From NCBI RefSeq assembly GCF_025151215.1, contig NZ_CP102286.1:806001-870000 (forward strand): DNA of 64,000 nucleotides, written 5' to 3'. Under the pieces are notes generated by a model. The model was not told the origin of the DNA, ran no database searches, and saw only the letters and a list, made by a program, of their open reading frames with translations. Of the stretch, positions 5,165 to 33,725 are shown piece by piece (position 1 is the first letter of the stretch; each line of letters opens with the position of its first letter). Position numbers and translations under genes: made by a program. This DNA is from Parabacteroides merdae ATCC 43184. Its GTDB lineage: Bacteria > Bacteroidota > Bacteroidia > Bacteroidales > Tannerellaceae.

Positions 5165-5383
5165 ATTTATCTTTTATTTAGTACATATAGACTGCAATAT
5201 TAATAAAATATGTAGCTTATTCTTATCATCTATAGCTATATTTGTAACTTGTCGCAAGTTTTAAGTAAAAGCTATTGAGGATGTTTTTCTGTAGGAGATA
5301 CCGTCTTTTTTGTTGAAATACGTGACTTATTTTGCTTCAAACAGGCAGAAAAAGTGCCGAAGATTCCCGTTTACAGGCTTTTT

Positions 5384-5452
5384 ACACCCGGATGTGAACG
5401 GTCTTGACACCCGAGTGTGAATGATATCGAGACCCGGGTGTCAATGGTCTTA
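5384..5452 (+). repeat. three tandem 23-bp repeats with ACCCGGGT core (copy A)
   Basis: Units start at 5384, 5407 and 5430. They read ACACCCGGATGTGAACGG.., ACACCCGAGTGTGAATGA.. and AGACCCGGGTGTCAATGG.., with ACCCG at 5386, 5409 and 5432, so the period is exactly 23 bp. Each core approaches the palindrome ACACCCGGGTGT. The same triple with the same period lies at 33391-33461. Confidence 0.85.
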
Positions 5453-5507
5453 TCTTATTATGTTATTGAAAATAAGTCATATGAAGAAAAATATCGGACA
5501 GGCAGTT

Positions 5508-5556
5508 AATGATAGTATGATAGATGGAATCGGCATCCATCATACCTACTATCATT
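5508..5556. repeat. hairpin of copy A with ATGATAGTA arms
   Basis: AATGATAGTA (5508-5517) and TACTATCATT (5547-5556) form a perfect 10-bp stem. The inner 10 bases on each side pair only partly, leaving a small loop. The segment 5509-5523 (ATGATAGTATGATAG) recurs exactly, inverted, at 33146-33160. Confidence 0.75.
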
Positions 5557-5745
5557 GCTTGTGTCTATTGATATTCAATTGATAAAAGGAAATTAGTGAT
5601 AGTATGACAGTTGTTTTTCAAATTAATCCTAGTAATAGGATAAAGCTGGCTGATGAAGGCTATGCAAAATTTATTTCGGGGAAATTTAAACAGGCTCTTA
5701 GTTTAATTCATACCTTTACACCAAGAACAAATAATAATTACAAAT

Positions 5746-7866
5746 ATGAATAAAACACTTATGGCTGCTGGACTTGCAGTTGTTTTAGGGGCATGCAACT
5801 CATCAAAGAAGAGTGATGGAGTTGATACTTCCGCCGTGAATCCATTCTTTACCGAGTACACGACACCGTTCGGCGTTCCTCCTTTTGAACAAATCAAAGT
5901 TGAACATTACAAACCTGCTTTCCTAAAAGGAATGGAGGAACAAACAGCAGAAGTAGAGGCGATCGTAAACAATCCGGACAAAGCTACTTTTGAGAATACG
6001 ATTGTTGCACTGGACCGTAGTGGAGAATTGCTTATGAAGGTCGCTTATGCCTTCAGCGGTCAGGCGAGTGTCAACACAAACGACGAGATTCAGGCTCTTG
6101 AACAGGAACTTTCACCATTGCTCTCCAAACATAGTGACGATATCAGCCTGAATCCGAAACTTTTTGCCCGTGTGAAGTCTGTATATGAGAATCAGGCGAA
6201 GTTGAACTTGGATAAGGAGCAGAAGAAACTGCTTGAAGAAACTTATAAAGGGTTTGTCCGGGGCGGTGCTAACTTAGATGCCGACGAACAGGCGGAGCTT
6301 CGTAAACTGAACGAACAGATTTCTATGTTAGAACTGACTTTCGGACAAAATTCGTTAAAGGAGACGAATGCTTTCCAGCTCGTGGTCGATAAGAAAGAAG
6401 ACTTGTCCGGTCTGCCTGAAACATTGATTGCCGCCGCCGCTACTACAGCTAAAGAGGCCGGACTGGATGGAAAGTGGGTTTTCACATTGCATAATCCGAG
6501 TGTGATGCCTTTCCTGCAATATGCCGACAATCGTGCTTTGCGTGAGAAAATCTATAAAGCCTATGTTTGTCGTGGCAATAACAATAATGCAAACGATAAC
6601 AAGGATGTAATCAAGAAGTTGGTTGTCGCCCGTTTGGAAAAAGCCAAATTATTGGGCTATGAAGACTTTGCCGCATACGTGTTGGAAGAAAACATGGCGA
6701 AGAATGAAAAGAATGTATACGATTTGTTGAACAAGATCTGGATTCCCGCTCTTGTAAAAGCGAAGGAAGAGCTGGCGGATATCAATGCCGAGATTAAGAA
6801 AGAAGGTGGTAACTTCGAAGCGGAAGCCTGGGATTGGCGTTATTATTTCGAAAAAGCCAAGAAAGCGAAATTTGACTTGGACGAAAACGAAGTTCGTCCA
6901 TACTTGGAGCTTAACAATGTCCGGGAAGGTGCTTTCTATGTGGCGAACAAACTGTATGGCATCACTTTTACTTCGTTGCAGGACATGCCGCTTCCCGATC
7001 CGGATGCCCAGGTTTTCGAATGTAAGGACAAGGATGGTACATCTTTAGGTGTACTTTATATGGACTTCTTTACTCGTCCGGGAAAGAGTGGTGGAGCATG
7101 GTGTGGTGGTTATCGCGACCAAACGTATAAGGATGGTAAGCGCATAACTCCGGTAGTGACGACTGTGTTTAATTTCTGTAAACCGGCAGATGGACAGCCT
7201 GCCTTGTTGAGTGTTGACGAGGCTGAAACTGTTTTCCACGAGTTCGGACATGCTTTGAATGGACTTTTTGCTGATGTCCATTATAATGGAGTGGCTGGTG
7301 TTCCCCGTGATTTCGTTGAACTTCCTTCGCAGGTAATGGAGCATTGGGTGTTCGAACCGGAAGTCTTGAAAGTTTATGCCAAGCATCATGAAACAGGCGA
7401 AGTGATCCCGCAGGCTATTGTCGATAAAATAGTGAAGAGTGGTAGATATGGACAAGGTTTTGCAACAACTGAATATGTGGCTTCTTCTTTGTTGGATATG
7501 GACTATCATGTTCTGAAAGAGGTTCCGGTGGATTTGAATATAGAAAAGTTTGAATTAGATGCTATGTATGGTCGAGGTTTGTTGAAGCAGATTGCTCCTC
7601 GTTATTGGGGCACATATTTCGGTCATACGATGGAAGGTGGTTATACAGCTGGCTACTACAGCTACATTTGGGCGGAAGTGCTGGATTGTGATGCTTTCGA
7701 GGCGTTTAAAGAAACGGGGGACATCTTCAGTCCCGAAGTGGCCGCCAAATTTCGTACATACGTTTTGTCTCCGGGCGGTATTGATGAAGGTATGGATATG
7801 TACAAAAATTTTCGAGGTAAGGAACCGGACACGGAGCCTTTATTGAAGAACAGAGGTCTTAAATAA
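5746..7866 (+). CDS. dcp: M3 family metallopeptidase, peptidyl-dipeptidase (Dcp)-like lipoprotein
   Basis: The 706-residue protein begins with a lipoprotein signal whose lipobox LGAC gives Cys17 as the lipidated residue, so it is probably anchored on the periplasmic side of a membrane. The M3 zinc motif HEFGH is at residues 498-502, followed by the downstream glutamate region DFVELPSQVMEHW. Length and architecture match bacterial peptidyl-dipeptidase Dcp/oligopeptidase A. It should release dipeptides from the C-termini of peptides in the periplasm, fitting amino-acid nutrition in this group. A short mutarotase-like gene follows 22 bp later and may be cotranscribed. The composite repeat element lies in its upstream region. 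Confidence 0.93.
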   Translation: MNKTLMAAGLAVVLGACNSSKKSDGVDTSAVNPFFTEYTTPFGVPPFEQIKVEHYKPAFLKGMEEQTAEVEAIVNNPDKATFENTIVALDRSGELLMKVAYAFSGQASVNTNDEIQALEQELSPLLSKHSDDISLNPKLFARVKSVYENQAKLNLDKEQKKLLEETYKGFVRGGANLDADEQAELRKLNEQISMLELTFGQNSLKETNAFQLVVDKKEDLSGLPETLIAAAATTAKEAGLDGKWVFTLHNPSVMPFLQYADNRALREKIYKAYVCRGNNNNANDNKDVIKKLVVARLEKAKLLGYEDFAAYVLEENMAKNEKNVYDLLNKIWIPALVKAKEELADINAEIKKEGGNFEAEAWDWRYYFEKAKKAKFDLDENEVRPYLELNNVREGAFYVANKLYGITFTSLQDMPLPDPDAQVFECKDKDGTSLGVLYMDFFTRPGKSGGAWCGGYRDQTYKDGKRITPVVTTVFNFCKPADGQPALLSVDEAETVFHEFGHALNGLFADVHYNGVAGVPRDFVELPSQVMEHWVFEPEVLKVYAKHHETGEVIPQAIVDKIVKSGRYGQGFATTEYVASSLLDMDYHVLKEVPVDLNIEKFELDAMYGRGLLKQIAPRYWGTYFGHTMEGGYTAGYYSYIWAEVLDCDAFEAFKETGDIFSPEVAAKFRTYVLSPGGIDEGMDMYKNFRGKEPDTEPLLKNRGLK

Positions 7867-33054: not shown

Positions 33055-33084
33055 CAAAGATAGTTTTTATTTTATTATTCCAAA
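33055..33084 (-). promoter_or_regulatory. promoter of the GNAT-AlaX operon
   Basis: On the minus strand TTTG (33081-33084) is followed after 18 bp by TATCTTTG (33055-33062), close to the Bacteroidetes consensus. Transcription would start near 33048. Confidence 0.7.
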
Positions 33085-33198
33085 TAGAGGCAATCAGTCC
33101 TTGTCTTTACACGGGCATTTCTATATAAAGTCTTTAGCAAAACAACTATCATACTATCATAATTGAGTTTATGTGATTGTAAAACAGTATGTTATTCT

Positions 33199-33225
33199 AT
33201 GATAGTTCTTGTTTTTAACTATCAT
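33199..33225. repeat. hairpin of copy B
   Basis: ATGATAGTT (33199-33207) and AACTATCAT (33217-33225) form a perfect 9-bp stem with a 9-nt loop. It corresponds to the hairpin 5508-5556 of copy A. Confidence 0.75.
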
Positions 33226-33390
33226 TCATCTATCATAACCATCATGGGTGAAAAGCAATAAAGCATTATATATCAATATTTTATCAAATGAAGGATATGT
33301 TCTGAAGCTGATACAAAATAGATTAAAGAGGCTCGTTTTTTCATGAAGACAAGCTACTTTTTAGGCAAAAACAACTTGAAAAGTTTCTTC

Positions 33391-33461
33391 AGACCCGGGT
33401 GGAAGGGCATGGGAGATCCGGGTGTGGAGGAGGTGGAGACCCGGATCTACGTGAAACCGGA
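33391..33461 (-). repeat. three tandem 23-bp repeats with ACCCGGGT core (copy B)
   Basis: On the plus strand ACCCGGGT begins at 33393, ATCCGGGT at 33416 and ACCCGGAT at 33439, so the period is exactly 23 bp, as in copy A. The sequences between cores differ between the copies, while core and period are kept. Confidence 0.8.
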
Positions 33462-33725
33462 ACGGGGATGTGGAGCTGTTTATCTGCCTTGTTTGAGGAG
33501 ATTTTATGCACTGTTTCTGATTATAATCCAGTGGATTACCTTGTGTATCCTCCCATGGCATGATCGCTTCCTTCTTTATTGGAAAGAGAATGTTAAAAAG
33601 ATAAGTCGGTAAGGTCGTTTTCATAAACATTTGCTATTCTTAACCTGGTAATTCCAATCAAAACAGTTTAATTTTTGTTATAAAGATAGATTTAAGTCTG
33701 AAACGGTCTAAACAAATTATTAGGT

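Follow-up and report, generated by a model that had tools for sequence, protein, structure and literature searches.

Intergenic repeats of Parabacteroides merdae look like gene-less derivatives of a two-gene HU/primase-helicase element

The window analysed here, i.e., the whole 64,000-bp stretch at positions 806,001 to 870,000 of the 4.38-Mb chromosome of Parabacteroides merdae ATCC 43184 (genome G000), carries two copies of a composite noncoding element, both located between divergently transcribed genes according to the list of open reading frames (ORFs). Copy A (5270..5697, plus strand), delimited by alignment with nine other copies and with an approximate left limit, is a truncated member of a subfamily termed F1; it has lost its left terminal repeat and keeps only the right F1 end. 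It comprises (i) a CAAACAGGCAGA segment (5338..5349, plus), (ii) three 23-bp units with an A[CT]CCGGGTGT core (5386..5454, plus), which start at 5386, 5409, and 5432 and correspond to the HU-gene leader array of the coding elements described below, (iii) a terminal module (5508..5617, plus) made up of a TGATAG hairpin (~5509-5555), a 39-bp spacer, and a 22-bp box (5596..5617, plus; from the box pattern search), and (iv) the intact right outer terminal repeat of F1, GAGCCTGTTTAAATTT (5682..5697, minus; from the end-pattern search). The module was matched by a sequence profile at G000:C1:811508-811617 with an E value of 7.8e-13, copy A itself being part of the training set of that profile.

Copy B (33080..33542, minus strand) was aligned with six other copies, which places it in a second subfamily, F2, with approximate limits and with outer terminal repeats that are degenerate or lost. 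On the same strand it contains a CAAACAAGGCAGA segment (33483..33495), three 23-bp units (33378..33446; at 33446, 33423, and 33400), and a terminal module (33139..33246) ending in the 22-bp box (33139..33160); this module was matched at G000:C1:839139-839246 (E 5.5e-17) by a profile trained on four other F2 copies and not on copy B. All five parts that the initial annotation had assigned to each copy are therefore where it had placed them, the triples stepping by 23 bp and the two boxes having the same letter at 20/22 positions. The distance from box to next ATG, counted by eye, is 128 bp for A and 114 bp for B. When the resemblance was checked against shuffled sequence, as had been suggested, the A-versus-B local alignment scored 42, the best of 500 shuffled versions of B reaching 27, and the parts were found to recur together elsewhere in the family.

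The view that the element occurs twice applies to the window alone. Across the chromosome, the 22-bp box has 40 matches with at most three mismatches, compared to 0 for the reversed pattern, indicative of a large family rather than a pair. The ~108-bp module, in which a hairpin of TGATAG repeats is followed by ~38-40 bp of spacer and then by the box, was aligned from 38 sequences and modelled from 36 of them, once L014 (hairpin absent) and L019 (similar to other F1 rows) had been dropped. A search of this and related genomes had been proposed from the outset, and it was productive: the profile gave 68 matches in this genome, matches in 10/38 genomes of the genus, in 15/123 genomes and 4/16 genera at the family level, and, under stricter filters and a lower E limit, in 2/393 genomes at the order level, both of the present genus. 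When genomes of named species were scanned with an exact pattern, nine stretches were returned, eight of which belong to Parabacteroides (P. faecis with five, plus P. goldsteinii, P. gordonii, and P. massiliensis). The ninth, on a Bacillus pumilus contig (L325; NZ_NKHG01000119.1, 3209-3278), combines an exact box with a weak module match (E 0.001) and represents either contamination or chance.

The hairpin-spacer-box unit is a terminal module, often present as inverted pairs ~400-740 bp apart. Array units at 22-24-bp spacing were detected within 32 of 34 such short pairs (20 from five other genomes, 10 from this genome, two of G004, and two of subfamily F6), compared to 0.2 expected from shuffles; one of the two pairs lacking an array, L070, is a fragment whose limits were placed approximately. 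A length of 503-505 bp recurs among the pairs of five genomes, and ten elements of about this length display identities of 55-64% between the main genome groups and 74-88% within them. The third 23-bp unit does not strictly follow the coding element of its own genome, L262 and L266 being exceptions. Separately, the right flank of one short element (L274 of G030; query positions ~1401-1601) is repeated at several G030 sites and constitutes another dispersed repeat family adjoining it.

Both copies had also been described as always pointing at a gene start. This carries little information, since at a divergent intergenic site, such as those of A and B, either orientation faces a gene start. By crude longest-ORF gene calls, the box is directed toward a start in 17/20 one-ended copies and the opposite end likewise in 14/20, with the box toward the start in 4/5 tandem sites (p = 0.375). 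A directional link to gene starts was thus rejected, as the opposite end faces a start nearly as often and tandem sites show no bias, and box direction is no evidence of promoter function. The initial annotation had left the choice between parts that are under selection and an old mobile family; the mobile family has stood, and the link to gene starts fell once the type of intergenic region was considered.

A coding relative is bounded by the same modules. Among the matches listed, at least five module pairs are separated by 2967-3167 bp (G000, G045, G030, G031, and G069, the last from another genus), and a BT4734-like/VapE primase-helicase gene lies within each of the five, with a clear HU ORF beside it in four; the G069 ORF is shorter (524 aa) and about 42% identical. 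Pfam searches of three coding elements (L099, L150, and L100) identified HU-HIG, BT4734-like_N, VapE, DUF3874, and DUF5906, with no transposase or integrase domain in the three; CRISPR-associated PrimPol was matched below its cut-off. VapE at an identity of at least 67% is present in 7/38 genomes of the genus, at one copy each, and modules were detected in 7/7 of these compared to 3/31 others (Fisher 9.5e-6, a value that is too favourable since the genomes are related). Module matches in the absence of a close VapE came from two draft genomes, G021 (6) and G004 (15), and from G001 (one). Thirty VapE loci were scanned out of 39 matches listed: eight carry modules (the seven plus the 58% relative L100), 7/8 at both ends, and 22 carry none; one of the eight, L099, was in the training set. 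This genome alone encodes eight BT4734/VapE-type loci.

The short elements are connected to the coding form by its leader as well as by its ends. In 8/8 coding elements checked, 23-bp-spaced ACCCGGGTGT units upstream of HU start 28-29 bp after a TAnnTTTG box, which we take to be the Bacteroides -7 promoter consensus. Short elements align with this leader across the module, the array, and the following bases; TAnnTTTG at 24-34 bp before the array was found in 0/35 of them, A and B included. These comparisons indicate that the conserved parts of A and B correspond, in all likelihood, to the termini and leader array of a longer, gene-bearing element. Judged from sequence, there is good support for the family, for its ends, and for a tie to the HU/primase-helicase element; A and B are very probably gene-less relatives of that element family, and they look like one-ended, gene-less derivatives of it.

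Comparison of coding elements between genomes provides a view of their history. For G000 and G002, the alignment spans 2979 bp at 83% and stops about 6 bp or less from the boxes, the flanks being unmatched; for G000 and G029, it spans 2804 bp at 95% and stops no more than 5 bp from the box on the right, the left module giving a weak match. G029 and G002 also match each other for 274 bp (81%) roughly 1 kb beyond the element and thus probably share a site, different from the placement in G000. In 6/7 genomes, oadB is 0.5-11 kb from the element, compared to 75 kb in G029; the oadB side is common to G000 and G031. VapE and OadB identities disagree, at 84 and 99%, respectively, for G000-G031, and 98 and 97% for G000-G029. 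No target duplication was found at the element ends in the aligned copies. A single copy near oadB in 6/7 genomes suggests that the coding element moves rarely if at all, and its history may be read as one of rare relocation or exchange. In an empty-site search with the joined flanks of 10 elements in 10 genomes, nine stretches were obtained and four of these inspected; L271 versus L311 gave a left boundary, and the other three were too rearranged for precise empty sites.

Carriage by phage was rejected: among 519 phage-collection records, the best match (61%) is an unverified contig with the chromosomal locus of L100, and the other nine listed are at 49% or less. Plasmid carriage was likewise rejected, with the ten matches listed from 76 plasmid records at 46% or less. 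Three viral-contig relatives (46-47%) gave no match to the module. One record filed as "Bacteriophage sp." (L334; MT838192.1) encodes VapE and neighbouring genes that are the same as those of the chromosomal L100 locus, and is thus probably a bacterial contig.

These observations can be brought together as follows. The parent would be a ~2.97-kb element with genes only for an HU-type DNA-binding protein and an archaeo-eukaryotic-primase/VapE-helicase, bounded by inverted hairpin-spacer-box modules, with the promoter, three ACCCGGGTGT-type 23-bp units, and then HU arranged between them. Internal deletion would have removed the promoter and the genes, leaving the array together with one end module or both; for the direction of change, deletion from the coding form would be the simplest reading. 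The array and modules, having been kept despite gene loss, are probably sites needed in cis by a trans-acting machinery, and a role in cis for the array is suspected chiefly because it persists where promoter and genes are gone. By the logic of RAYT/REPIN systems, which offers the likeliest model, a single-copy gene pair would act on its own ends and array, and would copy or relocate the short elements at a low rate. Some short forms would also have become flanked by transposase-type terminal repeats and multiplied as ordinary MITEs, with A and B descending from two such lineages (F1 and F2). Action of the HU/primase-helicase pair on the short elements is a tentative proposal to which we give somewhat less than even weight; the overall explanation, i.e., MITE-like deletion derivatives served by this pair, is in our estimation evenly poised between right and wrong. 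Weighing against it are the genomes with modules but no close VapE, the absence of target duplications at the aligned coding elements, the rarity of their movement, the mismatched third units, and the outer repeats treated below. More speculative is that these elements represent a new class of mobile element, in which HU and a primase-polymerase/helicase, without transposase or integrase, would recognise hairpin-iteron ends and an origin-like three-unit array, copy rarely, and drive promoterless, gene-less satellites across the genome that bear those cis sites.

The outer ends of the subfamilies bear directly on this explanation. Subfamily F1 includes five 464-bp copies with exact 16-bp inverted ends, and the inspection of flanks for target duplications that had been suggested revealed identical 3-bp flanks (TAA or TTA) in 4/5 of these full copies, the fifth having TAA and TTA. 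The F1-end pattern has 17 matches in this genome, 14 of which are accounted for by F1 copies, two of the other three having been inspected in part. The intact F2 member L009 (513 bp) has GGGCAACC-type ends with a 10-bp direct repeat outside, the F4 member L001 has ends of the same type with a direct repeat of about 11 bp, and two F6 copies checked have no direct repeat outside their ends; GGGCAACC-type ends are carried with two different interiors (F4 and F6). Given the outer terminal repeats and target duplications of F1, F2, and F4, conventional transposases account for part of the spread, with a clear contribution in some subfamilies. The exact F1 ends and their flanks, the direct repeats at L009 and L001, and the end type common to two interiors favour plain MITEs, moved only by IS-type transposases via their outer repeats, for which the HU/VapE-related interior would be passive cargo captured more than once. 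We consider this a serious contender, albeit one that probably does not hold. Plain MITEs would not need the array and end modules, yet these were kept in 32/34 pairs. Moreover, neither GAGCCTG- nor GGGCAACC-type ends were found within 130 bp on each side of 15 pairs from G045, G027, and G030, such that the modules themselves may serve as ends. Nor was a parent IS seen among the inspected own-genome matches to both end patterns, which are short elements or single ends.

With regard to F6 (L195, L196, L176, L178, and L183, all in G000), its members combine a GTGATAGAGTGATAGAGG box and GGGCAACC-type ends with an array and a ACACCCCCATGT motif as in the L100 leader. The second coding element, L100, may by this resemblance have given rise to a separate family of short elements.

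Another alternative to service by the HU/primase-helicase pair is host regulation, with the array and modules as sites for HU or another nucleoid protein, kept for transcription or for titrating a repressor of the HU operon. The position of the array just downstream of the promoter box in 8/8 coding elements is indeed operator-like, and divergent intergenic regions house most one-ended copies; however, polymorphic insertions and target duplications are signs of mobility, the divergent location may reflect survival only, and tandem sites (4/5) are without directional bias. As a full account we therefore deem it improbable; a regulatory role would nonetheless be compatible with derivation from the HU/primase-helicase element and does not exclude it. 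Chance resemblance of two intergenic stretches is already refuted by the box counts (40 versus 0) and the module profile matches, with the A-B score also against it, and can be set aside.

The hairpin helix is paired in 98% of alignment cells, with nine two-sided changes compared to 2.6 in shuffles, and the number of pairs with two-sided changes (two) is ordinary (296/500 shuffles). The same pattern would be expected of a protein site that occurs in either orientation; hairpin covariation thus does not separate RNA from DNA. Rfam returned 0 matches above the gathering score over positions 5200-5760, with no known structured RNA at copy A.

That no named family matches, as had been noted initially, holds as far as tested, and no description of the present repeat family was found in the open-licence PMC literature. 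The nearest named family is BrickBuilt, a MITE of Porphyromonas gingivalis which, in the excerpts of its description, is intergenic, occurs at ~20 copies per genome, and has 23-nt direct repeats and IS5-type terminal repeats (PMC4596501). Intergenic siting and 23-bp repeats are held in common, as are 3-bp target duplications in F1 (PMC4596501). In contrast, BrickBuilt (i) has GAGACC(T)TTGCA-like ends (PMC4596501, table 2), compared to GAGCCTGTTTAAATTT in F1 and GGGCAACC-type ends in F2/F4, (ii) contains 1 to 22.8 repeat units rather than three, (iii) has a distinct leader and a distinct tail where the present family has inverted end modules, and (iv) has no coding relative described in those excerpts (PMC4596501). 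As terminal repeats and repeat number differ, the family is not filed as BrickBuilt, a separation made on these two features and not on the sequence of the 23-mers.

RAYT/REPIN systems offer the nearest logic, without their transposase. In the excerpts of PMC8049555, as here, a single-copy gene accompanies a population of short, hairpin-bearing intergenic elements, often as inverted pairs. There, however, RAYT is a tyrosine transposase, whereas HU and a primase-helicase are present here, with no Y1 transposase detected by Pfam; furthermore, the present elements are ~500 bp and contain an internal 23-bp array, unlike REPINs (PMC8049555). F1 itself resembles IS-family MITEs in its 464-bp length, exact inverted ends, and TAA/TTA duplications, but differs from ordinary MITEs in that its interior is related to a transposase-free HU/primase-helicase element and is common to subfamilies with other outer ends.

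PMC5862659 places BT4734-like proteins among the archaeo-eukaryotic primase families and gives VirE/VapE domains as predicted helicases of mobile elements. The same protein families occur in the integrated BT4734/VapE elements of that account, which have integrases and many genes, as opposed to two genes between hairpin-iteron ends here (PMC5862659). Such primase-helicases are common in gut Bacteroidales, and no function for them was found in the open-licence PMC texts as excerpted. Should their ends and leader array mark out a mobile unit attended by dozens of satellites, these enzymes would gain a testable role, the Parabacteroides intergenic repeat population would be explained, and DNA movement by a primase-helicase instead of a transposase would be open to direct test. 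Were the gene pair inert, the family would still be a clear case of the cis sites of one element residing on MITEs whose ends are of two or more kinds. In this genome, another HU and VapE pair (L101; G000:C1:119000-131000), which has no end modules, lies beside ORFs that, in the ORF list, resemble a translated CRISPR array and Cas1/Cas2-like ORFs.
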